This document shows positions 1-29,955 of a DNA stretch of 64,000 nucleotides, one piece after another (the stretch's first letter is position 1; each line of letters opens with the position of its first letter). The notes beneath the pieces are model-generated. The model saw only the letters and a program-made list of their open reading frames with translations. It searched no databases and was not told where the DNA came from. The DNA comes from a virus. The stretch spans positions 1 through 64,000 of IMG/VR virus record IMGVR_UViG_3300047483_000243; one strand, given 5' to 3'. The translations under genes and the position numbers were made by a program.

Positions 1-561
1 CTTGAGATTGGCGACCGTCCATTTGTTGCCATTGGTCTTACTGCGCCATCCCGTAGAGAATTTTATTACAGCAAAAATGGTGGAAAACTAATACACAACA
101 TTCCATCTCCAGAGTTTCAACATATTGATGGATTAGATGACACATCAAATTCTGAACTACATGTGTTCAACAATCTGTATATCAAATACTTGTGGAACCC
201 CGTATACGATTTTCATTTGTATATGACACATGTATTGACATTACAGAATTTTCTCAAAGCAAACGACTTGGATTATATCATATTCAACAGTTTGAATCTT
301 ACTCCAAATCTTACTGAAGAAAACAAGTTTGAAGCGTTGTGCCATCAAGCCAACATGAGTGCTGTATTCAAACAGTTTGATATGAACCGAATATATGAAG
401 ACCAGACATTTTTTACATACATGTATGACAGAGGTCTATACTTCACGGATGAAGGAACTGATGCATTTATGCATCCAAATGAACAAGCACATAAAGAATG
501 GGCAGATGTTCTAATGAGAGACATCACTGCTACTATGATAAAGGAAAGAATGAAGAGATGA
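1..561 (+). CDS. SGNH-hydrolase-like protein, 5' end outside window
   Basis: The frame is open from the first base, giving 187 residues of a protein whose start lies upstream of the window. The early segment 'VAIGLTAPSRREFY' and the C-terminal 'DAFMHPNEQAHKEWA' look like the core strand and the C-terminal Asp/His block of SGNH/GDSL hydrolases, in which the His before a Pro completes the catalytic site. The nucleophilic Ser block would lie upstream and is not visible, so activity cannot be confirmed. The stop overlaps the next start (ATGA). SGNH-type proteins often act on acyl groups of glycans, which would suit the sugar/surface-modification flavour of the neighbours, but that is inference. 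Confidence 0.5.
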   Translation, partial: LEIGDRPFVAIGLTAPSRREFYYSKNGGKLIHNIPSPEFQHIDGLDDTSNSELHVFNNLYIKYLWNPVYDFHLYMTHVLTLQNFLKANDLDYIIFNSLNLTPNLTEENKFEALCHQANMSAVFKQFDMNRIYEDQTFFTYMYDRGLYFTDEGTDAFMHPNEQAHKEWADVLMRDITATMIKERMKR

Positions 562-683
562 TAGGATATATCAAAGATTTTTGGGCGATTGTAACATATC
601 CATATAGAGATTGGAAACGCCGAAAAGAACTAAAAAAGAGAATTGAAGAACTACGCAAGCGCGATCCATTCATATACAAGTAA
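558..683 (+). CDS. Small basic protein, 41 aa
   Basis: Starts at the ATG that overlaps the stop of the previous gene (ATGA); a longer frame from 498 would lie wholly inside that gene and has no ribosome site. The product has an aromatic N-terminal stretch (IGYIKDFWAIVTYPY) followed by a highly charged Lys/Arg/Glu helix (KELKKRIEELRKRD), so it may be a short membrane-edge or helical peptide. I do not recognise a family. Confidence 0.55.
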   Translation: MIGYIKDFWAIVTYPYRDWKRRKELKKRIEELRKRDPFIYK

Positions 684-4698: not shown

Positions 4699-5584
4699 GT
4701 TATACGATACTCTAGGCGTTGACCCTTCTCTTACTGTGGACCAGAATGTCGTTATGGACGTTGGAGTGGAAATTGAAGAGATAATTTCCAACGAGAGCCG
4801 TAACCGAAGAAAGAAGCGCCCGCTGGCGATGGTCGACTACGACTATCAAGCGATGGCGATTGAATATTCAATGGAAAATGTTCCACAGCAACTTGGAAAC
4901 TACCGTAATTCCATGGACTTTTTGGCTCATATTAACTTGATTGGCAACGACAAAATTGTTGATAGGTTGAAGTCTGTGATATATAATTTCCCAAATATAG
5001 ACATGAGTAGCTTTCTTAATAAAGAGAACGCAAAACTTTATTCTTGGATTTGTCAGCATCTAAGTTATACACTGGGGGAAAAGTATATCGGGTCGGTCTA
5101 TGTTCTTGGTGGTGGCATGGGTCTGCTAGGAGCAATGTTACTAGATACAAAACTGCGTTTCGAGAACATCCGTAGTTTTGATATCAACGGCGCTGGCCAA
5201 TTTTTGGCAGACGAGATGATGGCGGCAGAACTTCTAATGGATTGGCGGTTCAAGGCAACTACAAAAGACCTATTTGATATTGACTACGCTCGTAATCTAT
5301 TCTCGTGCCGCCTACAAAATGGTTCTTTGAGTGACCCATTCAAAGAAATACCAGGAACCGTTATTAACACGAACATGAGTTACTTGAAGAACAACAAAGA
5401 CTGGTATGAAATGATTCCAGATTTGCGCCGTGTGGTTATTGTTGGGGAAACTGGTGATGATGTTCCATATCCATTCCCAAGTTCACAGGCGTTTAACAAG
5501 AAGTTTCCGATGAGCTATGAACTCTATACTGGTGTTCTCAATGTAGGCAAAAAACAGTTCTTTATGAAAATAGGACACAGATGA
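4637..5584 (+). CDS. Class I SAM methyltransferase-like protein
   Basis: About 315 aa. I start it at the ATG with GAGGA eight bases upstream, not at an earlier in-frame start inside the preceding gene. The N-terminus is very basic (TATRERRARRNSKIKK). A Rossmann-type motif 'VLGGGMGLLGAMLL' (~156) is followed by 'IRSFDIN' (acidic residue ending strand 2) and later 'VINTNMSYLKNN', consistent with a class I S-adenosylmethionine-dependent methyltransferase. The substrate is unknown. It overlaps the upstream gene by 62 nt and the downstream radical SAM gene by ATGA, so it is translated as part of the operon. Confidence 0.55.
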   Translation: MTTATRERRARRNSKIKKHDELYDTLGVDPSLTVDQNVVMDVGVEIEEIISNESRNRRKKRPLAMVDYDYQAMAIEYSMENVPQQLGNYRNSMDFLAHINLIGNDKIVDRLKSVIYNFPNIDMSSFLNKENAKLYSWICQHLSYTLGEKYIGSVYVLGGGMGLLGAMLLDTKLRFENIRSFDINGAGQFLADEMMAAELLMDWRFKATTKDLFDIDYARNLFSCRLQNGSLSDPFKEIPGTVINTNMSYLKNNKDWYEMIPDLRRVVIVGETGDDVPYPFPSSQAFNKKFPMSYELYTGVLNVGKKQFFMKIGHR

Positions 5585-6669
5585 TATATCGCTACGAAGA
5601 TGTTAGGGTTGTCCATTTAGAACTTACTGAACGGTGCCAAGCATCTTGCCCAATGTGTGATAGAAATATGAGGGGCGGCAAGTTAAATCCTAACTTGTCG
5701 CTCAACGAACTATCATTGTCAGACATCAAAAATATGTTTTTGCCAGATTTTGTAAAGCAACTGCAACGTCTGTATATGTGTGGTAACTTTGGTGATCCAA
5801 TTGTTGCAGATGATACATTAGAAATTTTTGAATATTTTCGTAGTCAAAACCAAAATGTGACGCTTGGGATGAATACAAACGCTGGTGCAAAGAAACCAGA
5901 ATGGTGGAGAGAACTAGCTAAGGTGTTGGGTCCAAACTCATACGTGAATTTTTCATTTGATGGATTGAAAGACACCAACCACCTTTATCGTCAAGGCGTC
6001 AACTGGGATATCGCAATCACAAATGCAGAGGCGTTCATAGAGGCTGGCGGAAAGGCACATTGGGATTTCCTCATATTTGAACATAATGAACACCAAGTGG
6101 AGCAAGCTCGTGAACTAAGTCAGCGTATGGGATTTCATAAGTTCACACCAAAAAAAACTGCACGTTTTTATTCGACTGCCCGCGCTGATGGCAAAGAAGA
6201 GCACCAAGCGGTAAACCGTAAAGGCGAAGAACAACAGCTATTGCAAAAGCCAAAAGAAGTCAAGTATCAAAACAAAGAGATTTCCCGCATCAACGAGTTA
6301 AAAGAAAAATACGGCTCGTTGGAATCATATTTCGATAATGTTCAAATCAAGTGTAAAGTGGCAGAAGAAAAAAACCTTTTTGTGTCGGCTGAAGGATTGG
6401 TTCTTCCTTGCTGTTGGGTTGCTGGTAACATGTATAAGTGGTGGCAAGTTCCTGGCGAAAACCAAGTATGGGAACTCATTCAGCAGTCTGGCGGCAAGGA
6501 TAAATTTGACGCAAAAGTTCATGGCATAGCTGGTGTTCTCAACAATGAATACTTTTCACATCGGTTAGTTGACAGTTGGGGCAAACCAAATATACACTCT
6601 GGAAAATCTAAAGTATGTTCTGAAAAATGCGGAATAGAGTTCGATCCATTTAGTGCGCAGTTCAAATGA
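5581..6669 (+). CDS. Radical SAM protein 1
   Basis: A 362-aa radical SAM enzyme: CxxxCxxC at 'CQASCPMC' (~18-25), a glycine-containing second-strand segment 'YMCGNFGDP', and later 'NFSFDG'. Two C-terminal cysteine groups ('GLVLPCCWVAG' and 'KVCSEKCGIEF') look like ligands for an auxiliary Fe-S cluster of the SPASM/twitch type. Such enzymes cleave S-adenosylmethionine to a 5'-deoxyadenosyl radical. Sequence does not reveal the substrate. It differs from the other eight copies in lacking the N-terminal Cys block and in its C-terminal layout. ATGA overlap upstream; 4-nt overlap with the oxygenase gene downstream. Confidence 0.85.
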   Translation: MIYRYEDVRVVHLELTERCQASCPMCDRNMRGGKLNPNLSLNELSLSDIKNMFLPDFVKQLQRLYMCGNFGDPIVADDTLEIFEYFRSQNQNVTLGMNTNAGAKKPEWWRELAKVLGPNSYVNFSFDGLKDTNHLYRQGVNWDIAITNAEAFIEAGGKAHWDFLIFEHNEHQVEQARELSQRMGFHKFTPKKTARFYSTARADGKEEHQAVNRKGEEQQLLQKPKEVKYQNKEISRINELKEKYGSLESYFDNVQIKCKVAEEKNLFVSAEGLVLPCCWVAGNMYKWWQVPGENQVWELIQQSGGKDKFDAKVHGIAGVLNNEYFSHRLVDSWGKPNIHSGKSKVCSEKCGIEFDPFSAQFK

Positions 6670-7214
6670 AATTTGTGAACCTACAAGAGAAATTCAGCAC
6701 CTTCAAATACTATCAGTTTGATAGTCTTTTGCCGTTGAATATAGTTCAACAAGCGGCAGAAGAAAGCAAGAGGTTCACTCCATTCCTTGTAGAAAAGACA
6801 AGGACTAGCAACACGCAACGAATATGGATGAACCAATTATGGATGACTGTGTTCAGTGAAATTGCTGAACAATTCGATTCCGATGAAGCAAAAGAAATGT
6901 TTAGCGATATAACGGGAACTGACTATAGAAAGATGAGAACTCGTCCCGAACTGTGTATTGACAAACAAGGGTCATGGCTTGAACCCCATGTGGATGACCC
7001 CGCAAAAGAACTTACGCTTCAACTATATCTGAGTGGACATGGGCGAAGCACTACCATAGGAACCACTTCGACTGAAATAAGTATAGGTAGCGGATGGTTC
7101 TTTGTAAACACTGCAACCGAGTGGCATCGTCTTCCGCCATTGGAAAACGATAGGACTAGTATCATTATTAATTATGTCAATGAAAAGTGGAATGATAAAA
7201 CTGTGCTTGTATGA
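6666..7214 (+). CDS. 2-oxoglutarate/Fe(II)-dependent oxygenase
   Basis: A 182-aa double-stranded beta-helix oxygenase. The metal triad is visible: H-x-D in 'WLEPHVDDPAKELT' and a distal His in 'TATEWHRLPPLEND', with the nearby Arg in 'DRTSIIINYV' placed to bind 2-oxoglutarate. Family members hydroxylate or desaturate peptides, nucleic acids or small molecules; T4-like phages often carry several. Here it is locked between two radical SAM genes by 4-nt overlaps, so it probably acts in the same modification pathway. Substrate unknown. Confidence 0.8.
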   Translation: MKFVNLQEKFSTFKYYQFDSLLPLNIVQQAAEESKRFTPFLVEKTRTSNTQRIWMNQLWMTVFSEIAEQFDSDEAKEMFSDITGTDYRKMRTRPELCIDKQGSWLEPHVDDPAKELTLQLYLSGHGRSTTIGTTSTEISIGSGWFFVNTATEWHRLPPLENDRTSIIINYVNEKWNDKTVLV

Positions 7215-8170
7215 TTGATCGTATATTCTTTGAACATTCAAATCTGTATATTGACTGGCAACTGAGTGACATTTGTAATTACAAATGTCACTATTGTAAT
7301 TTTGAGAGTAAAGGGGGAATGAACCCTTGGCCAGAATTAGAAGCCGCTAAACAGTTAGTAGATGAAATAGTTCGTAATAGCAACCATGGGTATAGAACGT
7401 ATAACCTTCTTGGTGGAGAGCCAACACTATGGAAATACTACGGTGAACTTTGCCAATATATAAAGTCAGTTGATGACAATTGTGTCATACAGACATTGAC
7501 CAACGGTTCAAGAACTCTACGATGGTGGCAGAAGTTTGCTCCGTATATGGACAAGGTTGTTATAAGCCATCACAGTGCATCGTCGTCGGCTGAACATACA
7601 TCGGATGTAACAAAGATATGCTCATCGCATTGCAGTGTGAGTGTTCAAGTATTGATGGATGCTACTAACTTTGACGAGTGTGTTGAGCACTTTGATTATC
7701 TTATCACAAATAATATAGGTTCAAGGATAGTAGCAAAGAAGGCTGAAACTACGCTAGGAAGCGGTAAATGGATGGAATACACTCCATCTCAACAGGAATG
7801 GCTTATTCATAGCTTTCAAAGAACAAGAGATAATGAGTATCAACCCAGTCCATATATCAGAACTAAGTCGGTCATTGACCGAAAGGTAATGGCGGGAAAT
7901 GGAGAAAAACGCTGGTTATCCAGTAATAAAGAGATTATACTAAATGGCTGGAACCATTTCAAAGGTTGGCGTTGTAATATTGGAATTGATATGCTTTCAA
8001 TTCGTCCTAACGGAGATATAAAACCGAGTAGTGCTTGTTTCAATGAGGTAATACTTGGTAATTATAAGAATGATGATTTTGTTCTAATTCTTCCGTTAGC
8101 AGGGTATGAGTGTAAATATGATAGTTGTTTTTGTGGGGCGGATATAGAAATTGAAAAATACAAACAGTGA
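7211..8170 (+). CDS. Radical SAM protein 2 (C-terminal SPASM-like)
   Basis: 319 aa. The radical SAM cluster motif is 'CNYKCHYC' (~18-25), followed by 'NLLGGEPTLWKYY', the GGEP motif that contacts the SAM methionyl group. The C-terminal third has 'WRCNIGIDMLSIRPNGDI', 'SACFNE' and 'CKYDSCFCGAD', a SPASM-like set of cysteines for extra Fe-S clusters. The closest architecture in this window is that of the genes at 14560 and 18380. The start overlaps the preceding stop (ATGA). Confidence 0.87.
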   Translation: MIDRIFFEHSNLYIDWQLSDICNYKCHYCNFESKGGMNPWPELEAAKQLVDEIVRNSNHGYRTYNLLGGEPTLWKYYGELCQYIKSVDDNCVIQTLTNGSRTLRWWQKFAPYMDKVVISHHSASSSAEHTSDVTKICSSHCSVSVQVLMDATNFDECVEHFDYLITNNIGSRIVAKKAETTLGSGKWMEYTPSQQEWLIHSFQRTRDNEYQPSPYIRTKSVIDRKVMAGNGEKRWLSSNKEIILNGWNHFKGWRCNIGIDMLSIRPNGDIKPSSACFNEVILGNYKNDDFVLILPLAGYECKYDSCFCGADIEIEKYKQ

Positions 8171-9323
8171 TACTTTCTGTGCATTACCTTGGATGCACAT
8201 TGCAACCAGCCCCGGCGGAACCTTTCGTGTGTGCTGTAATAGCGACAACAAGAATAATAAAATATTGAAAGAGGATGGAACTCCATTCAAGATATACAAA
8301 GATTCGATTGCAGATGCAAAGAACTCTCCTACCTATAAACTGATAAAAGAACAGATGTTGAATGGCGTTCAACCACCAACATGCAAAAGGTGCTTCAAGC
8401 AAGAAGAAGCTGGATTTGAAAGTAGTCGCCAAGTTTATAACCACGTTTGGGCAAATCGGGTAAAACTGAATGAAGATACGGAGACATTGTATCTTGACTT
8501 GCGATTGGGAAATCAATGCAATTTGAAATGCAGAATGTGTAACCCATATTCAAGTAACCAGTGGGTGAATGAGTGGGAACAATTGTATGGTAAGTTTTCT
8601 GAGAATGAAAGAACTTGGCTAACTGACATGGGATGGCAGAAATCAGATAGAATAAACAAAAATCTATTTGAACTTGCACATACTGTTGAAGAAATATATC
8701 TAACGGGCGGCGAACCCACGCTTATCAAAGAGCAAGACTTATTACTTGATTACTGTATTGAAAATGATTTAGCCAAAAATATAAATCTCAAATACAATAC
8801 AAATCTCACACATGTTCCAAAAACTCTAATTGACAAATGGGTAAAGTTTAAAGGAGTGTTGTTGAATTGTAGTATTGATGCGTATGGCGATTTGAATACG
8901 TATATACGTAATCCTATCAAATGGTCAAAGATTGCCAGAAACTTTGAAAAGGTAAAAAGAATACCAAATGTCAAGTTGGATGTATGTATCACTGTTCAAA
9001 TATACAATATTCTTTACATGAATGATTTGCTTGATTGGGTAATAAATCAAGACCTTCCAAACACCATGATATTTTTCAACATTCTAGAAGAACCTGACCA
9101 ATTGAATATAAAATCTTTACCACTAGAGTTAAAAAAAATGGCAGCATCAAGATTGAAGCCATACTTTCATTTGCCAAAGCTATCGGGTGTTATTGACTAT
9201 ATGATGATTGAGCAGCGCAACGATTGGAGTAAGTTTATTGAGTTCACAAAGACAGTTGACGCAATGCGAAATGAAAGTATAGTTTCTGTTGTCCCAGAGT
9301 TCAAGGAATACTTCAGTGATTGA
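8151..9323 (+). CDS. Twitch-type radical SAM protein 3
   Basis: 390 aa starting at TTG, the only start upstream of the conserved 'FCALPWMHI'; it overlaps the previous gene by 20 nt. An N-terminal cysteine block ('FCALPW', 'FRVCCNS', 'CKRCFKQEE') precedes the radical SAM motif 'CNLKCRMC' (~126) and the 'LTGGEPTL' motif. This order, with auxiliary-cluster Cys before the SAM domain, is typical of phage proteins called twitch domain-containing radical SAM proteins. The ending 'FKEYFSD' recurs in the 11848 copy ('EMKDIFKYD'), showing paralogy. Substrate unknown. Confidence 0.85.
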   Translation: MKNTNSDTFCALPWMHIATSPGGTFRVCCNSDNKNNKILKEDGTPFKIYKDSIADAKNSPTYKLIKEQMLNGVQPPTCKRCFKQEEAGFESSRQVYNHVWANRVKLNEDTETLYLDLRLGNQCNLKCRMCNPYSSNQWVNEWEQLYGKFSENERTWLTDMGWQKSDRINKNLFELAHTVEEIYLTGGEPTLIKEQDLLLDYCIENDLAKNINLKYNTNLTHVPKTLIDKWVKFKGVLLNCSIDAYGDLNTYIRNPIKWSKIARNFEKVKRIPNVKLDVCITVQIYNILYMNDLLDWVINQDLPNTMIFFNILEEPDQLNIKSLPLELKKMAASRLKPYFHLPKLSGVIDYMMIEQRNDWSKFIEFTKTVDAMRNESIVSVVPEFKEYFSD

Positions 9324-10422
9324 TTGCTTTGCTACCCGAAATAGCTTTCAAGTGGACGCCCAAGGCAAAGTGTCTCCTTGTTGCAAGTTCAAGGGTAATT
9401 ATTCGCATATTGATGAATACCAAACTGTTGGGGATATTTTTTCTGACCCTCGCCTTTCCGCATTGCGAGAAAATCATCGGCAGGATATTTGGACAAAATC
9501 TTGTGTCAGATGCGAGCAAGATGAGGCGTCACAGAAGCAAAGTCGTAAGCAGATGTATGAAGTCATTGGACTTAGCAACGACGATTTTTTTGTTGATGTG
9601 AGCCTTGGAAACTACTGCAACTTGAAGTGCAGAATGTGTAGCCCAGAAAATAGTTCTCAATGGGTATCAGATTACAACGCACTGATTGCCGAAGGTTTAG
9701 TATCGGCAGTAAAATATACGAACTATCTTATGAGTGAGCATACAATAGAAATGATTGCATCTTTCATTGACACTGTGAAAGGTAGAATTGTCATAGAAGT
9801 AAAAGGTGGTGAGCCTCTATTGATGCCAAACAGCCAATCATTTTTTGTGCGATTGAGTGAGTGTGTTAATTCAAAAAACATAGAGATATGGATTGCAAGT
9901 AACGGGACAAAAATACCAGATTGGTTTTCTGACTGTATTAACCGATTCAAAAAAGTTGAATTGAGTATAAGCGTCGATGGCAGCGGAAAGGTTTATAATT
10001 ATATTCGCGGGTCAAAACATTCGTATGAGGATATACTATTAAATTCAGCTAATCTTTCTAATATAGAAAACGTTGTTCTTCGTTTTAATGTTGTTGTTCA
10101 AAATTTAAATATAAAAAACGTTGCTGACTTGTATGATGATTTATTTTCGATAGTAAAATCCCATAATAGAATAACTCTCATTGTATTACGATTTCCTGAG
10201 TATTATCAATCAAACATATATCCAGACAGAGAGAAGCAGCCCATATATATCAGTTGGGCTGGTAGAACAATAAAATACAATCCGAGCTATAATGCGATGG
10301 CAAACGTATTTCTTATGCCAAACGATGAGGTTCAATGGAAAGCCTTTCAAAAAATAACAGAGGTTCTTGATAGTCGCAGACATCAAGACATTTCGGAGAT
10401 AGACAAATGTTTGAAGATATAA
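9316..10422 (+). CDS. Twitch-type radical SAM protein 4
   Basis: 368 aa. I use the GTG at 9316, which has AAGGA about 9 nt upstream and overlaps the preceding stop, rather than a TTG at 9289. It has an N-terminal Cys block ('IDCFATRNSF', 'VSPCCKF', 'SCVRCEQDE') and then the radical SAM motif 'CNLKCRMC' and 'VKGGEPLLMP'. Paralogous to the previous gene (both have G-N-x-CNLKCRMC followed by a W-V stretch), suggesting local duplication followed by divergence. Confidence 0.85.
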   Translation: MIDCFATRNSFQVDAQGKVSPCCKFKGNYSHIDEYQTVGDIFSDPRLSALRENHRQDIWTKSCVRCEQDEASQKQSRKQMYEVIGLSNDDFFVDVSLGNYCNLKCRMCSPENSSQWVSDYNALIAEGLVSAVKYTNYLMSEHTIEMIASFIDTVKGRIVIEVKGGEPLLMPNSQSFFVRLSECVNSKNIEIWIASNGTKIPDWFSDCINRFKKVELSISVDGSGKVYNYIRGSKHSYEDILLNSANLSNIENVVLRFNVVVQNLNIKNVADLYDDLFSIVKSHNRITLIVLRFPEYYQSNIYPDREKQPIYISWAGRTIKYNPSYNAMANVFLMPNDEVQWKAFQKITEVLDSRRHQDISEIDKCLKI

Positions 10423-11228
10423 GCAACCGACCAAGAATAGACCCACTCACCGAACAAGTGTTGAATGAGTATAACCTTTACTACTACGAATGTCCGTTGA
10501 ATGAAATCCCGTTTCAGTCATGTGGCAGCAAAGAGTATATTCCAGATGATACCATACTGTTTCATTATCGCAATCTGAACTATCACTTGTTGTCATACAC
10601 AAACTATTTCAAGCCAATCATTGGAAATATAGTGAGAACTGGATGCTGGTTGGTGACGGATATGACAAGAAATGGAATACAGAGTCCACTCAGTATGTTT
10701 GAAACACATGTCCATCCTGGAAAAAAAAGATATATGGTTGCAAACTATTTACAGGTTGACAGAGTTCCAATATTGTGGCAAACTAAACAGTCGCATCCTA
10801 CCTATCAAAAAGTATCAAACATGTCAGACCTTTCGGATGTATACAAAAACAACTTTAGCACTCGTGTTGAAGTGTATGAAAATGAAATGAAGTTAGAATG
10901 TAGCTGGCATGGCGCTACCAACAGCCGCGATGCCAAGGGGTATGACAACTGGTGGAAGATAAGCAATGAATCTATAGGTTCAAACGTTATACTTGACTAC
11001 ATCACTCGCTACGGTGTTCGCATCAATGACACCAGTGTTCCATTTTATATATTGGTGGATGATGACCTTCATTTTGATTGGTGGCAGTTGTATTTTCATT
11101 TTGACCCAACTGTATATCGCAAAGTGTGTAAGACTGGTAAAATAGAAATCATAAATACCTTTGCAAATAACAAAGAAACTATTTACGATTGTAACCTTAT
11201 GAAAACTCTATTGCGGCCAAATTTATGA
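10407..11228 (+). CDS. Unknown protein of the radical SAM cluster, 273 aa
   Basis: No family recognised. The protein is rich in aromatic residues and His ('FHYRNLNYHLLSYTNYF', 'ILVDDDLHFDWWQLYFHF'), has an acidic 'VDDD' segment that could bind metal, and lacks cysteine clusters. It overlaps the upstream gene by 16 nt and the downstream one by ATGA, so it is co-translated with the modification enzymes and may be a substrate-handling or transferase partner. No signal peptide or membrane helix. Confidence 0.6.
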   Translation: MFEDISNRPRIDPLTEQVLNEYNLYYYECPLNEIPFQSCGSKEYIPDDTILFHYRNLNYHLLSYTNYFKPIIGNIVRTGCWLVTDMTRNGIQSPLSMFETHVHPGKKRYMVANYLQVDRVPILWQTKQSHPTYQKVSNMSDLSDVYKNNFSTRVEVYENEMKLECSWHGATNSRDAKGYDNWWKISNESIGSNVILDYITRYGVRINDTSVPFYILVDDDLHFDWWQLYFHFDPTVYRKVCKTGKIEIINTFANNKETIYDCNLMKTLLRPNL

Positions 11229-11851
11229 ATAAATCAAACTCATTAGAACATTTGTTTCCACTTCACCTTTTAATGAAACGAAAGTCCGAGTTTAGGACAG
11301 TAATTGATGTTGGCGTGAATAAGATTCGATACTTGGAGTTTTATAGCCAATATTTTGACAACGTAATAGGAGTGGAGCCAAATCCTATTACATATAGTGA
11401 AATGTCAAACTGGTTACCAAGTAATGTTAGATTGGATGGCATATGTCTATCTAATATTTCTAACGTTACTACCTTTTATGGATGCATGTTGGATTCTGGT
11501 TATAGCACGATGATACGAGATAGATATAATCAACTCATTGAAGACGGCGAGTTTTCTAAAGACGATTTTATTGAATATCATATTCCAACCGATAAGATTG
11601 ATAATATTTACAAGAATGAAAATTCAGTTGACCTTATTAAAATTGATGCAGAATATGAAGATATAAACATATTTCTAGGTGCGATTGACTTGGTGAATAG
11701 GAATAGACCTATAATTCAAATTGAACACATAGAACATCATATTAACACTGATGTGTTTTTTGATACGATTAAAGAAATTAACTATGTTGAGATAAAACCA
11801 TACTTTGAAAGTAGAAATTATTTTTTCATACCGAAAGAAGATATTATATGA
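11225..11851 (+). CDS. FkbM-like methyltransferase
   Basis: 208 aa with the FkbM pattern: 'VIDVGVNKIRYLEFYS' near residue 20 (motif I, with the usual glycines partly replaced), 'VIGVEPNPITY' (motif II, acidic E) and 'VDLIKIDAEYEDINIFLGA' near 140, the hallmark 'KID(A)E' helix. FkbM enzymes O-methylate sugars or polyketides. Motif I here is weaker than usual, so activity is uncertain. A second FkbM-like gene lies in the tRNA region at 49820. Confidence 0.7.
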   Translation: MNKSNSLEHLFPLHLLMKRKSEFRTVIDVGVNKIRYLEFYSQYFDNVIGVEPNPITYSEMSNWLPSNVRLDGICLSNISNVTTFYGCMLDSGYSTMIRDRYNQLIEDGEFSKDDFIEYHIPTDKIDNIYKNENSVDLIKIDAEYEDINIFLGAIDLVNRNRPIIQIEHIEHHINTDVFFDTIKEINYVEIKPYFESRNYFFIPKEDII

Positions 11852-13254
11852 GCAATGAATATCCCAGTAAAACATTTTGTGCCTTGCCGTGGGTTCACCT
11901 AAGCACCAGACCTGATGGTTCAATGCGAGTGTGTTGCACCGCAAACGCATCAAGTGTTGGCCCAACGAATGACAAAGAACATGGTGGTATGGTTGGTGTC
12001 CTCAAAGATGATATGGGAAAGCCAAGTAACCTCAACGTAACCGATTTCCTTACCAGTTGGAACAGCACGTATATGAAGAACGTGCGAAGACAAATGATGA
12101 ATGGTGAAATACCGCCATCTTGCACCAAATGCTTCAAGGAAGAAGCCGCTGGCCACAATTCAAAAAGAATGTGGGAAACCAATTATTGGTCACAACGTGT
12201 TGACATAAAACAACTGGTTGCCGATACAACTCCAGATGGTGAAGTTCCGCCGAAACTATCCTATATTGATTTAAGATTTGGAACAAAGTGCCAACTTGCT
12301 TGTGTCATGTGCAGTCCACATGATAGTAGCAGTTGGATCAAAGACTGGATGGTGATACACCCACAAATTCAGAACCCATCCCTAAAAGAAAACACTCAGT
12401 GGGCAGACAAAGGTTCCATCAACGGCAGTAGCTACAACTGGCACAGAAACAATCCTGTGTTCTGGCAGCAGTTTTATGAACAAATTCCAAATATGCAGCA
12501 AATTTATTTCGCTGGTGGAGAAAGTCTTATCATTGATGAGCACTATGAGATATTGGAAGAATGTATTCGTCAGGGTCATGCCAAGAACTTAGAGCTACGA
12601 TATAACTCAAACGGCGTTGAATGGAGAGAAGACCTCTTTGACCTGTGGAAAGAGTTCAAACTGGTTCGCTTTCATTATTCCGTTGATAGTATTGGCGACA
12701 TGAATAGTTATATTCGTTACCCAAGTGAATGGAAACGAACAGAAGAAGTATTTCATATCCTTGATAACGAAACCCCAGACCATGTAGAAATAACTGTAGC
12801 TTGTGCTGTGCAAGCACTCAACATATACTATCTGCCAGACTTTATCAAGTGGAAATTAGAACAAAACTTTAAGAAAATCAACATGTGGCCATTCGGCGCT
12901 GGCGGCATAAACTATCACTTTGTGTATCATCCGCCTCACCTGAACGTCAAAGTGTTGCCAGCTTGGTTCAAAGCAGAGTGCCGTAAAAAATATGAAGAGT
13001 TTTATCCTTGGTGGGAAGAAAACTGGGAAAAAGGTATACCAGAATGGCATCGCGGTAAAGTCACGTTTGACATGTGGAAGAACGCTGGATATGGATTGAA
13101 GCGGTTAGAAGGAATGCTTCAATTTATGGAGAGTGAGGATTGGAGCAATCGCCTACCAGAGATGGAAGAATTTTTGAAGTTGTGTGACCGTCAACGCAAT
13201 CAATCTTTTTCTGCTACATTCCCAGAAATGAAGGATATATTCAAATATGACTGA
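11848..13254 (+). CDS. Twitch-type radical SAM protein 5
   Basis: 468 aa, the longest of the nine. N-terminal block 'TFCALPWVHLSTRPDG', 'RVCCTAN' and 'CTKCFKEEAAGHNS' closely matches the 8151 gene. The radical SAM motif is 'CQLACVMC' (~150) and is followed by 'YFAGGESLIID' in the GGEP position, where Pro is replaced by Ser. A Trp/aromatic-rich C-terminal part ('FYPWWEENWEKG') is unique to this copy. ATGA overlap upstream, 8-nt overlap downstream. Confidence 0.86.
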   Translation: MSNEYPSKTFCALPWVHLSTRPDGSMRVCCTANASSVGPTNDKEHGGMVGVLKDDMGKPSNLNVTDFLTSWNSTYMKNVRRQMMNGEIPPSCTKCFKEEAAGHNSKRMWETNYWSQRVDIKQLVADTTPDGEVPPKLSYIDLRFGTKCQLACVMCSPHDSSSWIKDWMVIHPQIQNPSLKENTQWADKGSINGSSYNWHRNNPVFWQQFYEQIPNMQQIYFAGGESLIIDEHYEILEECIRQGHAKNLELRYNSNGVEWREDLFDLWKEFKLVRFHYSVDSIGDMNSYIRYPSEWKRTEEVFHILDNETPDHVEITVACAVQALNIYYLPDFIKWKLEQNFKKINMWPFGAGGINYHFVYHPPHLNVKVLPAWFKAECRKKYEEFYPWWEENWEKGIPEWHRGKVTFDMWKNAGYGLKRLEGMLQFMESEDWSNRLPEMEEFLKLCDRQRNQSFSATFPEMKDIFKYD

Positions 13255-14563
13255 TAGATTGCATTGCCCAATGAGTTATGCGGTGTATAAGTTCCAACCA
13301 GAAATTGGAGAATTTTCCGCTTGCTGTGACGCAGTTGTGTATAAATTCAATAAAGACTGGTTTGAAGAATTGGGGCCAGATTATTTTGAAAAGTTTCCAA
13401 CTCTTATCGACCGTAAAAAAGCATTATACAATGACGAGCGGCACATTGACTGCAAGCAATGTTGGGAAAAAGAAGACATCGGACTTCGTAGTATGCGTCA
13501 AATATTTGGACCACGGTATACGAGTTTACATAATAACCGAAATTTGTTAGTTGACAAGGCATACGTGTCGCGTGTGGAATTATGGATGAACTCTACTTGT
13601 AATGTCGGATGCTTTATGTGCAACTTGGGTAACAGTAACACTCTTCGAAAAATATGGAGTGACACGTTTGATTCAAATGGTCACGATGGAAAAGGGTATG
13701 ATAGTTGGATAAACCAAAACAACTACCAAACGGACTATAGAGAAACGTTCACTGGATACATGATAGACTTTGCAGTCAATGCATTAAAAAATGCAGAGCA
13801 TGGAATGAATATCGCTTATTTGGGTGGAGAGCCGACACTTCACAATGAAATGTATGACCATGCTGACATTTTTATTGAGGCAGCAAAAGAAAATGTGAAA
13901 CTAGGAAAAGATTTCATAATACAGATTGTGACAAATGGAACTAGTAAACCAAAATTGAACGAACGGTTCATGGGGATGTTTCAGAAGTATAAAGAAGCTG
14001 GTTGGAATACATCCATAATGTTGAGCCAAGATGCGGCAGACAAATATGTTGATGTGCGACATGGTTCAGACTTCAACGCAATAAAAAACAATTTTTCATC
14101 TTGGATATCTGCCAATAGCCTTATTGACAGCATAAAAAGTCATACGGTAATTAGTAATTTGAACCTTCCGTATATGGACAACATGGCAAGATACTTGCAT
14201 GATACCATTTTAAATAATTACATTGGCGATAGAGAATTAGAAATAAACTTTAATACATTGACACATCCTAAATGGATGCATTTAAAATATCTTCCACGAA
14301 AATATGCTGAAACTCAGATACTAAATGCAAAAGATATTCTGACAACGGTAAAATCTGAATTTGGTATAAGGATTAACACAGAAGTATTTGATGAGATATT
14401 AAGAGTATTGCCCGAACAAATATCCCAAGACGATGCAGAAATGATTTTTTCTAAATACAAATATGTTGCAGCACAATACAAAAAAGTGTATAATGGTTGG
14501 GATTTCTTTGAAACATTTGAACACTTAAAACCATTTGCAGAAGAGTATGGAATAGATATATGA
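13247..14563 (+). CDS. Twitch-type radical SAM protein 6
   Basis: 438 aa. N-terminal cysteines ('LHCPMSYAVYKF', 'FSACCDAVVY', 'DCKQCWEKED'), radical SAM motif 'CNVGCFMC' (~119) and 'YLGGEPTLHNE'. The C-terminal half is helical and lacks SPASM cysteines. Same architecture as the 8151, 9316, 11848 and 17197 proteins. Confidence 0.85.
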   Translation: MTDRLHCPMSYAVYKFQPEIGEFSACCDAVVYKFNKDWFEELGPDYFEKFPTLIDRKKALYNDERHIDCKQCWEKEDIGLRSMRQIFGPRYTSLHNNRNLLVDKAYVSRVELWMNSTCNVGCFMCNLGNSNTLRKIWSDTFDSNGHDGKGYDSWINQNNYQTDYRETFTGYMIDFAVNALKNAEHGMNIAYLGGEPTLHNEMYDHADIFIEAAKENVKLGKDFIIQIVTNGTSKPKLNERFMGMFQKYKEAGWNTSIMLSQDAADKYVDVRHGSDFNAIKNNFSSWISANSLIDSIKSHTVISNLNLPYMDNMARYLHDTILNNYIGDRELEINFNTLTHPKWMHLKYLPRKYAETQILNAKDILTTVKSEFGIRINTEVFDEILRVLPEQISQDDAEMIFSKYKYVAAQYKKVYNGWDFFETFEHLKPFAEEYGIDI

Positions 14564-15771
14564 GTTTTTGCGCTATAAACGACAAAACCGAAAAGAAACT
14601 GATGGTGATATGGGACTTAGGCAGAAAATGCACATATGCCTGTAGCTATTGCCCGCCACATAGAAAGAATAGTTGGAGTGCGGTTGCAAGTTTTGAAGAA
14701 CTGAAAAAGACCGCTGATGACTTGGAGCGATACAGCGAGTTGTTGAATGAGTATCGAGACACTCCGTTTCGAGTCTCTGCCAGCTTCACTGGCGGCGAAC
14801 CAACAGTAAACCCTGCGTTCTTTGATTTCTTGGTATACCTTCAGGAAAAATACCCACACTGGAACCGAACACTGACCACCAACGGATTTTACTCAGAGAG
14901 AAAACTTCGTTTGGTTATGAAGAACACTAACTTCACAACCCTAAGTTACCACTGTGAAGGCTCACCCGAACAAAAGAAGCGTGTCCGAGAAAACATCAAG
15001 ATTATGGTGGAAGAAGGATACGGCTTCAAGGTAAACGTTATGTTTCATGAGCGCCAAGATTATTTTGATGAGTGCGTTGAACTCTGTAAATGGTTTGACG
15101 AAATGGGTGTGAAGTATATCCCGCGTATTATTGGTGACCAAGGCGACATCAAACAAGGTCTAAAAGACAAGACAGTTCATACATATACCGCCGACCAAAT
15201 GAAATGGTTTACTGACTATTGGAATGCCAAAAATGGCAAGAAGGTGGAAAGTAAAATCGGCATACCAAACGAAAAGGTAGTGGGACAGACTATCGGACGC
15301 CCATGCTGCGGCGATAGGAAGATGGAAATTCTTGACAACGATGAATGGGTCCAAACTAAGTTTATCACCAACAACAACTTCCAAGGATGGAGTTGTATGA
15401 TTAACTGGTATTTCCTGTATATTCACCAAGAGATCGACAAGATTTGGTTTCACCAGACTTGTCAAGTGAATCTTAATGGCGAAGTGAACCCCATATGCAA
15501 CGTGAGTAATTTTGGGACTTTTATTGATGGCATGGAAACTCAAATGAAATCTGGTAGCATACCTTACATACGATGCCCAAAGACACACTGTGGTTGCGGT
15601 CTATGCGTTCCGAAAGCAAAAACAAATGATGTTGCGTTGGCACTATTCAAGTCTCATACAAAGAATATACAGCCTGAACTTATGGAAACAAAAGACCATC
15701 AAAATGATTTGGGTTCGCTGAAGCACATGGTTGAATTGTATGACAAATCAAATGGCAACGAGACAATATAA
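14560..15771 (+). CDS. Radical SAM protein 7 (C-terminal SPASM-like)
   Basis: 403 aa. Radical SAM motif 'CTYACSYC' (~24-31), 'FTGGEPTVNPAFF' and a C-terminal cysteine array ('WSCMINWYF', 'VNPICNVSNFG', 'RCPKTHCGCGLC'). The last looks able to hold one or two auxiliary clusters. No N-terminal Cys block. Stop TAA is followed by AATAGGAGATAGG, a strong ribosome site for the PP-loop gene. Confidence 0.87.
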   Translation: MSFCAINDKTEKKLMVIWDLGRKCTYACSYCPPHRKNSWSAVASFEELKKTADDLERYSELLNEYRDTPFRVSASFTGGEPTVNPAFFDFLVYLQEKYPHWNRTLTTNGFYSERKLRLVMKNTNFTTLSYHCEGSPEQKKRVRENIKIMVEEGYGFKVNVMFHERQDYFDECVELCKWFDEMGVKYIPRIIGDQGDIKQGLKDKTVHTYTADQMKWFTDYWNAKNGKKVESKIGIPNEKVVGQTIGRPCCGDRKMEILDNDEWVQTKFITNNNFQGWSCMINWYFLYIHQEIDKIWFHQTCQVNLNGEVNPICNVSNFGTFIDGMETQMKSGSIPYIRCPKTHCGCGLCVPKAKTNDVALALFKSHTKNIQPELMETKDHQNDLGSLKHMVELYDKSNGNETI

Positions 15772-15782
15772 TAGGAGATAGG

Positions 15783-16484
15783 ATGATACTTGAATGCGAA
15801 ATATCTGGGCAAAAGATTGACTTTGATATACCAGAAAAATATAAGAAGATAGGCGTAAATTGTAGTGGCGGCGCAGACAGTAGTATTCTCCTGTTGATGG
15901 TAATTCAATACCTTGTTGATAACAACCGAACTGATACTACGGTATCCGTTACAACTTGTTCTAATGACAAGAAGGGTAGATGGAACGGTAGACGTGCTGC
16001 TGATGTAATTGAATACGCAATGAACAAGACCAAGTTTCAAAACTTCGATTTGCATTATACATATTATCGTGACGTTCAAGACGAGAAATACTTTCATGAG
16101 GTAGAAAACAAGCTATTTTCTGATGGCAGAGTAGATATGTTCGTTAGTGGAATAACGAGTAACCCACCTATCGGGGAAACGGTTGAAAACATCAAAGGTC
16201 AGACGATTGTGTTGTCTGATGATATGCTTCCGTCTAGGAATGGCACTAACCACCAACTATGGTATTACGATAATGCAAAAGCATTTTACACTCCATATGC
16301 CAACGTTGATAAAAGATTTGTCGCGTCTATGTATAATAAATATGACGCAAATGATTTGTTTGATTTGACTCGTAGTTGTGAGTCAATCCCCGACGAAGGG
16401 GAAGACATATCAGTTTTTGAAAAGACACCATGTGGTAAGTGCTGGTGGTGTTTAGAACGTAAATGGGCATTTGGGAGATTCTAA
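15783..16484 (+). CDS. PP-loop ATPase, QueC-like, copy A
   Basis: 233 aa. The PP-loop 'NCSGGADSSILL' (~24) binds ATP and activates substrates as adenylates. The C-terminal 'TPCGKCWWCLERKWAFG' gives closely spaced cysteines like the zinc site of QueC (7-cyano-7-deazaguanine synthase), and the central 'FVSGITSNPP' segment is also PP-loop-like. QueC turns a carboxylate into a nitrile via an amide; other family members make amides or thiolated products. The tandem partner starts within its stop codon (TAATG). Confidence 0.75.
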   Translation: MILECEISGQKIDFDIPEKYKKIGVNCSGGADSSILLLMVIQYLVDNNRTDTTVSVTTCSNDKKGRWNGRRAADVIEYAMNKTKFQNFDLHYTYYRDVQDEKYFHEVENKLFSDGRVDMFVSGITSNPPIGETVENIKGQTIVLSDDMLPSRNGTNHQLWYYDNAKAFYTPYANVDKRFVASMYNKYDANDLFDLTRSCESIPDEGEDISVFEKTPCGKCWWCLERKWAFGRF

Positions 16485-17197
16485 TGAGTTTGGTTCTTAC
16501 AGGAAAAAGTGGAGAGACCGTAGAAATCGTTCTACTTCCGAAATACAAAAAGGTTGCAGTAAATTGTAGCGGCGGTGCAGATAGTAGTATACTCCTATAT
16601 ATTCTTGCCAAATACATAAAGGATAACAATCTTGATGTCAAGTTGAGTGTGTTGACATGCAGCACCGATGTAAAAGATCGTTGGACTGGCAGAAAAGCAG
16701 AACTTGTTACCAATTACATAATTGAAAATGTTGGTTCTGGAATAATAGATATGCATTATATCTATTTCAGAGAACGACCAAAACTTGAAGATTTCCATGA
16801 AATAGAAAATTCGTTGTTTTCTGATGGTAGAGCGCACCTAATCGTAAGTGGTATAACATCGAACCCGCCAGATGGGGCATCGGTAGAAGATATTGACGGC
16901 AACACAATAGACTTGTCTTTGGGAGCGCAAGCAAACAGAAATGGGTCGGACCATGACATATGGCATATTTCTACCGATGGCAAAGGAGACTTTTGGAGTC
17001 CATTTGCGAATGTGGATAAGAAGTTCATAGCAGACCAGTATGATGCGTATGGAGTGAGAGACACGCTTCTTCCTCTCACACGAAGCTGCGAAAAGAAAAC
17101 TCCATTGGATGCAAAGTTTGACCCAATGTTTGAGGAAACTCCTTGTGGCATTTGTTGGTGGTGCTTAGAACGAAAGTGGGCATTCGGGTATTTCTGA
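16484..17197 (+). CDS. PP-loop ATPase, QueC-like, copy B
   Basis: 237 aa, starting at the ATG overlapping the preceding TAA, with GGGAGA upstream. It is a clear paralogue of copy A: PP-loop 'NCSGGADSSILLY', 'IVSGITSNPP', and an almost identical tail 'TPCGICWWCLERKWAFG'. The retention of both copies with intact PP-loops and Cys sites argues for two functional proteins (hetero-oligomer or two substrates) rather than a decaying duplicate. No queC partners (queD, queE, folE) are visible. Confidence 0.75.
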   Translation: MSLVLTGKSGETVEIVLLPKYKKVAVNCSGGADSSILLYILAKYIKDNNLDVKLSVLTCSTDVKDRWTGRKAELVTNYIIENVGSGIIDMHYIYFRERPKLEDFHEIENSLFSDGRAHLIVSGITSNPPDGASVEDIDGNTIDLSLGAQANRNGSDHDIWHISTDGKGDFWSPFANVDKKFIADQYDAYGVRDTLLPLTRSCEKKTPLDAKFDPMFEETPCGICWWCLERKWAFGYF

Positions 17198-18402
17198 TGA
17201 CTGATAAGCGTTATGTATGCAGCAAAATGTTCACAGATATGAACATAAAATTTCCATATAACTGTGTGAAAAATTGCTGCAAATCCAACGATTATGTATC
17301 TTCGGTAGAAGATTTGAAGTCTGATGATTTTTTTATTTTCAACACCGAATATATGCGCCGTAAAAAAGACATGGTTCTGAATAACCAACTTCCAACTGGT
17401 GGATGTGATACATGTATAAAAATGGGAGACCACAGTTTATTTGAAGAATGGAACGTGTGGGGACGTGATATGCAAGATGATCACGACATACTAGTAGATG
17501 ATATGTTCAATACATACGAAATGGTGTTATCTAGTGCATGTGATTTGAAATGCATTTATTGTTCACCTAAAGATAGTTCAAGTTGGGCGAAAGAAAAGGG
17601 TGTTCCGCAAAACAAAGGAAATGATGAATGGAAACACCTAGTTATTTCTAAATTAATCTCATCATTGAAAACAAAAGTATTCAGAGACGATAACATATAT
17701 ACATTTTTTTTCAGTGGCGGCGAACCAACATATAACCCAGAAACATTGGATTTTGTGAATGAAATATTAAAATATGTTCCAACCGACCGAACACGAATTT
17801 GTATAAGCACCAATGCAAATACCAAACCTAAAGTATTCAAAAAATACTTGGATGCTATACAATCCGACTTGAGCGTGAATTGGATATTTGATTGCAGTAT
17901 AGATGGAATCAAAGAAGTATGCGAGGCAATAAGATACGGTATTTCTTGGAACACAGCAATTAAAAACATAGAAGTATTACTTCAACAGCCAAACGTAACG
18001 GTCAGAATATCTCCGACCGTAAATCTATACAGTGTTCCAACTATGAATGAATATATCAAATATTTTATTGAATTATTTGACAAATATGGTAAAATACATC
18101 ACGAGATGTTTAATTACAATATGGCACAAGAGTCGGGAATGTCTCCTGCTAACTTACCATCAGGGTATAAAAAATGTCTTGATGAACCAATTGAACAATT
18201 GAAAGAATTGGGCATATCTTATTATGAACATTTAGAAAATGTAAGAAATATAATAGGAACTGACCACAACGAATATAAAACACAATGTATGAAAACTACA
18301 TTTGAATATTTCAAAACAAAACGCCCAACCACTAATTGGGAGGAATTATTTCCTCACATAGTAGATATAATAGGAAAAAATGACGGAAATAAACAAAGAT
18401 AG
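17197..18402 (+). CDS. Twitch-type radical SAM protein 8
   Basis: 401 aa, starting at the ATG that overlaps the PP-loop stop (TGATGA region). N-terminal Cys block 'YVCSKMF', 'VKNCCKS' and 'GCDTCIKMGD'; radical SAM motif 'CDLKCIYC' (~118); 'FFSGGEPTYNPE'. It ends in TAG, one of few genes here to do so; readthrough would add 15 residues. Overlaps the next gene by 23 nt. Confidence 0.86.
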   Translation: MTDKRYVCSKMFTDMNIKFPYNCVKNCCKSNDYVSSVEDLKSDDFFIFNTEYMRRKKDMVLNNQLPTGGCDTCIKMGDHSLFEEWNVWGRDMQDDHDILVDDMFNTYEMVLSSACDLKCIYCSPKDSSSWAKEKGVPQNKGNDEWKHLVISKLISSLKTKVFRDDNIYTFFFSGGEPTYNPETLDFVNEILKYVPTDRTRICISTNANTKPKVFKKYLDAIQSDLSVNWIFDCSIDGIKEVCEAIRYGISWNTAIKNIEVLLQQPNVTVRISPTVNLYSVPTMNEYIKYFIELFDKYGKIHHEMFNYNMAQESGMSPANLPSGYKKCLDEPIEQLKELGISYYEHLENVRNIIGTDHNEYKTQCMKTTFEYFKTKRPTTNWEELFPHIVDIIGKNDGNKQR

Positions 18403-19549
18403 TCTGTATTGGTCGCAATACGATTTTACAAAAATACCATTTGACGACTTAGTTTCAGTGGGACAGAGAACCCTTCTCTATCGTGATTTGTTTTCGGTGA
18501 GTTGGCTACTTGGTAGGTTCTGTAACTACAAGTGTTCATATTGCTGGCCATATGCCAGAAGTGACAAAAAGGACCATCGCCCCACTGCCCTCTGTCTAGC
18601 TACTATAGACGAAATAAAAAGACAGGCCAGAGATAACGGATTCAACAGCTTTCATTTCAGTCTATCGGGTGGCGAACCAACATTCCATCCTGGTTATTTA
18701 GATATGTTGGGTCACCTAGCAAATGATGTAGAAAATACAAACTTTACCAGTATTCATATGACTACAAACATGGCACGTAAGATGGATTGGCATCAAAAAT
18801 ATTGTGATATTGCGGCTAAATTCAATCGTGCATCAATCACTGCGAGTTACCATAGTGAGTTCGCAGATAAAGACGAGTTCGTAGATAAACTGCATTTGTG
18901 TATGGAGCACGATGTTCAGGTAACAATCAATATGGTGTTGGTGCCTGAATGGTTTGATAGAGACTGGCAGAACGCACTGTATTTTCATGAGCGTGGAATA
19001 AACGTCACGTTGAAACCACAAAGTGATACATCGGCCAGTAGGGTAGTAGATGGATACACGCCAGAACAACTTGCTATCATGCGCAATGGAATGCCCCAGA
19101 GAGACTATACGAAGGCCATACAAGAGCAACGTGGCATCAAGGTAGTCAGACCCACACCGAAGCTAGGAAGCCTCTGGAAAGCCGATATGGAAGCAGGAGA
19201 CGATAAGTCAGTTCCAGCTATGATGCAAGTTGAGTTTCAAGATAGCACTGGACAGAAGTGGTATATGGACCAAGCAGAACGATTCAATGCTTTTGGCTTC
19301 AACAAATTCAAAGGATGGGAATGTTCTAGTGGATTTCGTGGCATCATCATCCGTGAGCCTGATGGGTCAATAAAGCGTTCATATAGCTGTTCTGACGAAC
19401 CCCTTGGGTATATTGAAAGCGGGTTCAAGTTATTTGATTCCCCGAAACCTTGCATAAGTGAAAGCTGTGTATCAAGTGCAGATAGTAAAATACCGAAACG
19501 AAAGCCGGGAGCGAAAATTCCACTGTATCCAAAAGACCCTATAAAGTAA
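18380..19549 (+). CDS. Radical SAM protein 9 (C-terminal SPASM-like)
   Basis: 389 aa. Radical SAM motif 'CNYKCSYC' (~49-56), 'LSGGEPTFHPGYL', and C-terminal 'WECSSGFRGIIIREPDG', 'SYSCSDE' and 'CISESCVSSAD'. Closest in layout to the 7211 and 14560 proteins, with 'CNYKC' shared with 7211. Last gene of the plus-strand cluster; a strong terminator follows at once. Confidence 0.87.
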   Translation: MTEINKDSLYWSQYDFTKIPFDDLVSVGQRTLLYRDLFSVSWLLGRFCNYKCSYCWPYARSDKKDHRPTALCLATIDEIKRQARDNGFNSFHFSLSGGEPTFHPGYLDMLGHLANDVENTNFTSIHMTTNMARKMDWHQKYCDIAAKFNRASITASYHSEFADKDEFVDKLHLCMEHDVQVTINMVLVPEWFDRDWQNALYFHERGINVTLKPQSDTSASRVVDGYTPEQLAIMRNGMPQRDYTKAIQEQRGIKVVRPTPKLGSLWKADMEAGDDKSVPAMMQVEFQDSTGQKWYMDQAERFNAFGFNKFKGWECSSGFRGIIIREPDGSIKRSYSCSDEPLGYIESGFKLFDSPKPCISESCVSSADSKIPKRKPGAKIPLYPKDPIK

Positions 19550-29745: not shown

Positions 29746-29754
29746 ATAATCTCC

Positions 29755-29955
29755 TATGAGGAAACGAGGGTAATTCCAGCCAACCACCCTCGTTATTGCT
29801 CTCACTCTATTTGACAGGGCTGGCAATAGTAGAGCATTATAGACGCACACTGCGCCACTTATCTAACACGCTCACGGCGATACATCCAGTGTATAGCGGG
29901 GGAATTACCATACATCATACATTTAGAGGATTGTATAGGCTTCCTATTAGATAAG
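29755..29955 (-). other. Non-coding gap with strong hairpin, possible small RNA
   Basis: About 200 nt without a gene. On the minus strand it contains 'TCTATAATGC' (a good -10) and then AACGAGGGT...ACCCTCGTT, a 9-bp hairpin at 29762-29793 next to the ribosome site of the 107-aa gene. It could be a leader with attenuation or a small RNA. Nothing else is recognisable. Confidence 0.35.

Follow-up and report, generated by a model that had tools for sequence, protein, structure and literature searches.

The 64,000-nucleotide stretch analysed here (positions 1 to 64,000 of IMG/VR virus record IMGVR_UViG_3300047483_000243; hereafter the window) carries nine genes for radical S-adenosylmethionine (SAM) enzymes in one 14-kb run, and three of these enzymes recur together in other phage islands and in contigs assigned to bacteria. 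Islands similarly crowded with such enzymes are found in many uncultured phages. The island of the window borders virion genes, and it looks like a real chemical pathway rather than an oddity. With confidence slightly short of even, we favour the reading that this late island produces an unusual sugar-like (glycan) unit and attaches it to a surface.

Results

Nine radical SAM genes of two architectures

Searching the 70,877-base record of the window at an E-value of 0.001 gave nine matches to the radical SAM family PF04055, all inside positions 5581-19549 and without inner stop codons, and no tenth match elsewhere in that record. Each of the nine proteins has a single CxxxCxxC motif, and the run of nine first proposed in a sequence-only reading of this DNA is thereby borne out. 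Eight proteins exceed the curated cut-off of 29.5 bits in the genome search and in hmmscan; the ninth, encoded by open reading frame (ORF) 13247 and named rS6N, scores below it in hmmscan (Table 1). A GGEP-like motif had been ascribed to all nine. GGEP itself is present in seven and GGES in the protein from 11848, but the protein from 5581 has GNFGDP.

The two architectures described earlier are both real, with one change of membership. In five proteins (from 8151, 9289, 11848, 13247 and 17143) the core is preceded by the N-terminal cysteine pattern C-x(17 or 18)-CC...CxxC, and extra cysteines lie C-terminal to the core in four (5581, 7211, 14560 and 18380), the first of which had been set apart as divergent from a group of three. 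Two start positions also change: the ORFs open at TTG 9289 and TTG 17143, and 9316 (GTG) and 17197 are internal starts in the same frames. Against NF033640 ('twitch domain-containing radical SAM protein'), four of the five N-block proteins score above the 170-bit cut-off and rS6N scores below it; the four thus qualify for an N-twitch subfamily whose name carries no function.

Inside the window the radical SAM paralogues are 20-30% identical, and PP1 and PP2, two PP-loop proteins encoded in the same run, are closer at 51%. Matched radical SAM orthologues from other phages share 38-84% identity (86% for one short piece). Orthologues are thus closer than paralogues within the phage, and the nine are old, separate families and not fresh tandem copies. 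For 17 genes, each compared with its best-scoring relative, the proportion of nonsynonymous differences (pN, 0.13-0.48) was below that of synonymous differences (pS, 0.64-0.91), synonymous sites being saturated in 16 of the 17; for rS5N, pN was 0.128 and pS 0.864. These values indicate purifying selection on the genes.

Recurrence among viruses

A profile of rS9C, the last enzyme of the run, matched at least 600 viral stretches, at least 593 of them encoding a relative, and 80 viral loci were kept from these matches for locus counts. At least four radical SAM-family ORFs were present in 74 of the 80 (median 7, range 1-12), as counted with hidden Markov model families built from these same islands; four of the six loci with fewer are short stretches. 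A member of N-twitch family F0 other than rS5N occurs in 78 of the 80, rS1 in 60 and rS5N in 46. Single, scattered and pseudogenised homologues, the outcome that would have spoken against a coherent pathway, are therefore not the rule. Among 21 longer records, comprising three of 12 from one listing and 18 of the 80 rS9C loci and all but one (G012) picked for length, every one has 5 to 23 radical SAM matches, so nine such genes in one phage are not unusual in this group. Records chosen without regard to radical SAM genes, by a DNA pattern for a peptide ending described below (DPFIY), had at least one PF04055 match at an E-value of 1e-5 in 27 of 30 (range 0-18); the 30 were taken from 80 such loci for contig size and do not include every long one.

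Scans with single proteins found rS7C in seven viral loci and PP1 in 12, each count including the phage itself. The seven rS7C loci share many genes in similar order, and their extra genes vary. Among 50,697 cultured-phage records, where rS7C and rS5N were the radical SAM proteins searched, rS7C and PP1 had no match at an E-value of 1e-5, and rS5N had weak matches in three (22-25% identity).

A three-enzyme core in phages and bacterial contigs

Together, rS1, rS5N and rS9C form a core that is complete in 39 of the 80 viral loci and, in stretches longer than 20 kb, in 31 of 54. The rS9C profile also found 24 loci in bacterial genome contigs, each from a metagenome-assembled genome. The titles of 18 place them in Bdellovibrionota, the group to which Bdellovibrio-type predators belong. 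All 24 enter the counts, although some, and L128, L136, L147 and L151 by their appearance, may come from phages or from mixed assemblies. The core is complete in 18 of the 24, and in 11 of the 12 longer than 20 kb. In the compact locus L145, a glycosyltransferase-like gene, rS5N, rS9C and rS1 lie among seemingly chromosomal genes, and the order rS9C-rS1-rS5N-F7 is found in L142, L143 and L146. In one bacterial locus's class, rS9C was detected in 15 of 143 genomes (E-value 1e-60). In a tree of rS5N, one supported clade (100/94) unites 15 bacterial rows; phage L008 is its neighbour, and 35 further phage rows lie elsewhere. Two more bacterial rows group with three phages. The phage and bacterial lineages of rS5N are well separated. 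Exchange of the other enzymes between phages, around this conserved core, has probably led to end products that differ.

Two further observations concern the bacterial contigs. In L136, a Bdellovibrionales contig, F34 (a gene resembling phage virion genes) and glycosyltransferase-like genes lie beside the core, so that this contig may belong to a phage or prophage. The genomes of 14 of the 24 loci (L128-L151) were searched with the rS5N profile and have 3 to 13 matches each at an E-value of 1e-20, so that large N-twitch sets occur there too.

The operon and its position in the phage genome

The same phage is represented by a fuller, 202,706-base viral record (G001), in which rS7C is 100% identical and base 1 of the window corresponds to about position 175,913 on the reverse strand. 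PF04055 matches number 15 in G001, where five lie at 178-195 kb and one lies at 70 kb in addition to these nine. The span 5581-19549 given earlier is thus too narrow, as the operon begins upstream of it. An SGNH-like gene, a gene for a 41-residue peptide, a carbamoyltransferase gene, a glycosyltransferase-like gene for 813 residues and a methyltransferase-like gene lead into rS1 (Table 1), and the nine genes would lie at the end of a single late-type operon, away from its promoter. The run from rS1 to rS9C has 14 genes and 13 junctions; by the tabulated ORF ends 12 of these overlap, which upholds the reported locking of the radical SAM genes to their neighbours except at an 11-nucleotide gap before 15783. 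Among the names given to these neighbours, carbamoyltransferase and FkbM score above family cut-offs, but the 2-oxoglutarate (2OG) oxygenase and PP-loop names rest on motifs (SGGADS and CGxCWWC for the PP-loop pair) and score below them. Membership of PP1 and PP2 in QueC and of OG2 in HalD was rejected on these scores, as was that of rS2C, the best-scoring candidate, in the viperin family NF038283. No Pfam, NCBIfam or PHROG match was found for the methyltransferase-like protein or for U273. The 813-residue protein looks like a tandem repeat, several times over, of a domain that stands alone in relatives as a protein of about 225-235 residues.

The sequence CATAAATA stands about 35 nucleotides before the first operon start in G001. 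In G001 the motif ATAAATA is enriched at most 80 nucleotides upstream of same-strand starts, where 29 of 67 sites lie (10 of 67 for the opposite strand; 5.7% of positions); motif and test were chosen together, and among 20 permutations TAAATAA (11 of 34) reaches 32%. T4-type late promoters have TATAAATA. This sequence is not enriched in the window (one match vs 3.4 expected), and in G001 five of its ten sites lie upstream of starts, none of them in the island. Scans for sigma-70 promoters and terminators gave counts near those of shuffled sequences. The late-promoter-like ATAAATA is suggestive of late expression of the operon, by analogy with the T4 type.

Upstream of the operon in G001, five radical SAM genes are accompanied by genes for an aminotransferase (113.2 vs a cut-off of 19.7), two nucleotidyltransferase-like proteins (one MobA-like with a HAD-like part, 28.7 vs 27; the second below cut-off at 21.9) and a RuBisCO-like protein, followed by virion genes (phrog_10938). 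PHROG virion or tail matches mark the far side of the island in G001 and in a second record, G002, and the thymidylate synthase gene thyA marks the near side, its product scoring as an ordinary enzyme (343.6 vs 108.35). The phage DNA polymerase matches phrog_262 (649.6 bits) and has matches in 2,379 of the 50,697 phage records, many from Escherichia and Synechococcus phages; jumbo phages, Sinorhizobium phage Phosso and Agrobacterium phage Atu_ph07 among them, have its closest relatives (46-49% identity). From these matches we read the phage as T4-related, and the setting would be an island of biosynthesis genes, hypervariable and placed between the genes for virion structure and thyA, in a large phage of this kind.

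Table 1. Features of the operon and of related loci (window coordinates unless a record is named; scores in bits, given against the family cut-off where available).
Feature	Position	Strand	Evidence and remarks
SGNH/DUF6071-like, first operon gene	1..561 (5' part outside window)	+	DUF6071 23.1 vs 27; SGNH by eye
SGNH-like, full ORF	G001 175353-176096		247 residues
41-residue peptide ending DPFIYK	558..683	+	ATGA overlap with SGNH-like gene; same C-terminus in other islands
Carbamoyltransferase, NodU/TobZ type	693..2213	+	PF16861 179.8, PF02543 136.6, both over cut-off; phrog_1601
813-residue protein, tandem GT-A-like domains by eye	2257..4698	+	Glycos_transf_2, below cut-off (score in text)
Rossmann methyltransferase-like, by eye	4622..5584	+	Homologues in same place in relatives, 29-31%
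rS1, radical SAM, C-terminal Cys, core enzyme	5581..6669	+	PF04055 35.7; aligned phage and bacterial orthologues 45-57%
OG2, possible 2OG-Fe(II) oxygenase	6666..7214	+	HalD (PF23169) 18 vs 26; motif HxD...WH
rS2C, radical SAM, C-terminal Cys	7211..8170	+	PF04055 52.3; nearest NCBIfam viperin, 52.4 vs 180
rS3N, N-twitch radical SAM	8151..9323	+	NF033640 376.8 vs 170
rS4N, N-twitch radical SAM	9289..10422	+	NF033640 202.8; SPASM 28.5 vs 21.5 at residues 13-75
U273, no family name	10407..11228	+	Orthologues in L003 and L005
FkbM-family methyltransferase	11225..11851	+	PF05050 41.9 vs 22.7; TIGR01444 41.3 vs 37.7
rS5N, N-twitch radical SAM, core enzyme	11848..13254	+	NF033640 415.1; 53-84% identity to 55 other rows
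rS6N, divergent N-twitch radical SAM	13247..14563	+	PF04055 23.1 vs 29.5; NF033640 144 vs 170
rS7C, radical SAM, many C-terminal Cys	14560..15771	+	PF04055 43.0; alignment
PP1, PP-loop protein, QueC-like C-terminal CGxCWWC	15783..16484	+	QueC (PF06508) 16.2 vs 22; alignment
PP2, paralogue of PP1	16463..17197	+	QueC 16.0 vs 22
rS8N, N-twitch radical SAM	17143..18402	+	NF033640 171.8 vs 170
rS9C, radical SAM, core enzyme, last operon gene	18380..19549	+	PF04055 47.7
MetK, SAM synthetase, outside operon, possible SAM supply	28156..29244	-	TIGR01034 424.5 vs 309.4
tRNA, anticodon CTA (ARAGORN: Pyl)	54196-54272		Possible amber suppressor, one of 17 tRNA genes
RuBisCO-like protein	L029 15269-16309 (G001 185269-186309)		PF00016 99.4 vs 30.1; neighbours nucleotidyltransferase-like, kinase-like, cupin-like
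DPFIY peptides of other islands	G002 16392-16496; G004 128564-128677; G008 29667-29786; L095 11325-11462		
F12, about 74-78 residues	L003 2027-2254 and five other records		Between F7 gene and rS1

Genes for SAM and iron-sulfur supply

MetK, a SAM synthetase, is encoded in eight of the 21 chosen records, in 130 of the 50,697 cultured-phage records (of which 90 have Streptococcus in the name) and in one of the 30 DPFIY-sample records, the one with the most radical SAM matches, 18. The A-type iron-sulfur carrier family PF01521 is present in ten of 15 records, a subset of the 21 that may be fragments. These counts are suggestive of a link between radical SAM islands and genes that supply SAM and iron-sulfur clusters.

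Fold comparisons

AlphaFold models were built for rS5N (from 56 sequences, pLDDT 88.0) and rS9C (from 52, pLDDT 88.7), with sequences picked from those found. In VIA-align, the best match of the rS9C model is the cytosylglucuronate decarboxylase BlsE (Z 17.4, 271 residues aligned, 3.5 Å), followed by EpeE (Z 16.1) and SkfB, with anSME, MoaA and viperin lower; the rS5N model is matched best by DesII (Z 11.1, 231 residues aligned, 4.0 Å). At 12% and 13% identity, the matches to BlsE and DesII express fold likeness only. Absence of a family from these lists carries no meaning. Among profile searches against the PDB, rS1 matched BlsE at an E-value of 0.0067, behind NifB, and rS7C gave weak matches to EpeE, MoaA and viperin; rS5N matched no PDB sequence at an E-value of 0.01, and PP1/PP2 had no PDB match.

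Discussion

Sugar-type chemistry is favoured by the carbamoyltransferase, FkbM, nucleotidyltransferase, aminotransferase, SGNH-like and glycosyltransferase-like genes together with the position beside virion genes, the SGNH-like and glycosyltransferase-like assignments being below cut-offs. The leading VIA-align matches, BlsE for rS9C and DesII for rS5N, and the rS1 profile match to BlsE also speak for it. In such a pathway, the radical SAM enzymes would remove, invert or rearrange C-H, C-O or C-N bonds of an activated sugar, which the PP-loop proteins, FkbM, the possible oxygenase and the carbamoyltransferase would decorate. The glycosyltransferase-like proteins would then place it on a surface, which may be that of the host envelope (for receptor masking or superinfection exclusion) or of the phage's own fibres. 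The gene set with its overlaps and conservation, the core and the place next to virion genes are observed, and from there we infer the sugar substrate, the order of steps, the attachment site and the biological role.

Several results weigh against a sugar product. The glycosyltransferase assignment of the 813-residue protein is weak (19.9 vs 23.3 bits), glycosyltransferase family 8 (GT8)-like genes were not recovered by Pfam, one single-domain glycosyltransferase-like protein had no Pfam match, and the single-domain profile found no PDB relative at an E-value of 1. DesII leads the rS5N list only in a tie, with sactipeptide, viperin and BlsE enzymes within one Z unit, and the peptide enzymes EpeE, SkfB and anSME are close behind in both fold lists. 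With rankings this mixed, fold alone does not decide the substrate. In 25 records of at least 100 kb, pooled from searches with differing E-value limits, MetK occurs in nine of the 19 with at least eight radical SAM matches vs none of the six with fewer (Fisher p 0.057), a borderline result that makes the MetK link no more than suggestive. Moreover, six of the 12 PP1 loci (L014-L019) have no radical SAM match within the stretch, so that the coherent pathway proposed earlier is supported by the conserved gene set but not by these loci. In four of the six, a carbamoyltransferase gene adjoins the PP-loop gene.

Enzymes with twitch and SPASM domains often act on peptides, and the same genes could tailor a small peptide or virion protein in turn, in the manner of a ribosomally synthesized and post-translationally modified peptide (RiPP); we consider this unlikely. 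The architecture of the enzymes agrees with it, as do the first place of SkfB in the Foldseek list for rS5N and the second place of EpeE in the VIA-align list for rS9C. Conserved short ORFs are also at hand: a hunt through 522 small ORFs from 116 sources, in which the top 14 families were looked at and at least two proved other-frame shadows of F12, left F12 (13 sources) and the DPFIY peptide (seven sources) as the widest real-looking families, with smaller ones in five, four and three sources, the last two beside rS9C-type genes. However, F12, which in several islands sits between the F7 gene and rS1, is absent from the island of the window, and no PqqD- or RiPP recognition element (RRE)-type match was found on the nine proteins in Pfam at an E-value of 0.01 or among the NCBIfam matches listed, unlisted RRE types being possible. 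The DPFIY peptide is mostly 33-65 residues long, with a variable basic N-terminus and an invariant C-terminal DPFIY plus one residue, and had no match in cultured phages at an E-value of 1 with the low-complexity filter on. Its tail tracks the carbamoyltransferase, found in 55 of 80 pattern loci (same strand in 55 of 55, within 10 nucleotides in 20), more than it tracks radical SAM genes: in 50 loci of at least 8 kb these occur in 15 and the carbamoyltransferase in 39. The tail also ends larger proteins, namely six cysteine-rich ones of 89-90 residues and a 420-residue radical SAM-family ORF in L219, and could serve for docking.

A modified base or nucleotide, including viperin-like nucleotides directed against competing phages, seems to us quite improbable as the product. 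Viperin is the first Foldseek match of the rS9C model, a ranking that also tells against a sugar, and the sole PDB match of its profile at an E-value of 0.01 (E 0.0022); prokaryotic viperin is the nearest NCBIfam family of rS2C, the PP-loop C-terminus is QueC-like, and a thymidylate synthase gene adjoins. Yet all these family matches are below cut-offs, the thymidylate synthase scores as an ordinary one and the island borders virion genes. Deazaguanine modification of nucleic acid was rejected because the TGT/DpdA family PF01702 was found in none of the same 15, possibly fragmentary, records (the control rings in 14 of 14), in a search that did not extend to QueD, QueE and FolE. It is likewise improbable that there is no single pathway and that a hypervariable region gathers independent auxiliary genes with radical SAM enzymes as common cargo. 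Gene content does vary strongly between relatives, PP1-type genes lack radical SAM neighbours in L014-L019, the core is incomplete in 41 of the 80 viral loci, and radical SAM cassettes are described as gained in a hypervariable island (PMC7029224, in the part concerned); against this stand the overlapping operon, purifying selection and the same three enzymes kept together in phages and bacteria.

That island, the host recognition cluster of pelagimyophages, is hypervariable, contains glycosyltransferases and in some phages radical SAM cassettes, and resembles the present one in belonging to T4-like phages and in its tail-side genes. The passages concerned mention radical SAM genes only in passing, whereas here there are 9 to 15 of them and a core common to bacteria (PMC7029224). 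The cluster lies between VrlC and gp14; with virion and tail genes at its border and glycosyltransferase names below cut-offs, the present island is a candidate for the same kind. A 183-kb T4-like genome, TARA_ERS488813_N000010, with 12 radical SAM genes and an A-type carrier, resembles the present phage, by description, as a radical SAM-rich T4-like genome with an iron-sulfur carrier, but was interpreted in terms of iron-sulfur metabolism, and the section concerned does not treat an operon, core or pathway (PMC5332604). Passages of two other papers contain further remarks on radical SAM genes (PMC7150976; PMC10783043). The earlier statement that no phage system with this set had been described holds in that we found no description of such a pathway in the open literature, most subscription papers being outside that search, but must be qualified since a radical SAM-rich T4-like genome (PMC5332604) and radical SAM cassettes (PMC7029224) are in print.

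The presence of the core in bacterial assemblies offers a second, possibly cultivable, place to look for the product, and these islands, where many neighbouring enzymes lack a family name, are also a place to find novel enzyme chemistry. Because radical SAM enzymes are costly and sensitive to oxygen, phages with 5-23 of them, and in some cases a SAM synthetase and an iron-sulfur carrier as well, must profit from them during infection. It is a doubtful but not negligible proposition that these islands are an undescribed system, built on a three-enzyme core in T4-related phages and Bdellovibrionota, with 5-23 radical SAM enzymes in the phages and sometimes a SAM synthetase and iron-sulfur carrier of their own, whose product is a surface glycan of a new, radical-tailored class (or another compound) used in cell takeover. 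If true, two unrelated kinds of bacterial attacker, T4-related phages and Bdellovibrionota, would hold one core.

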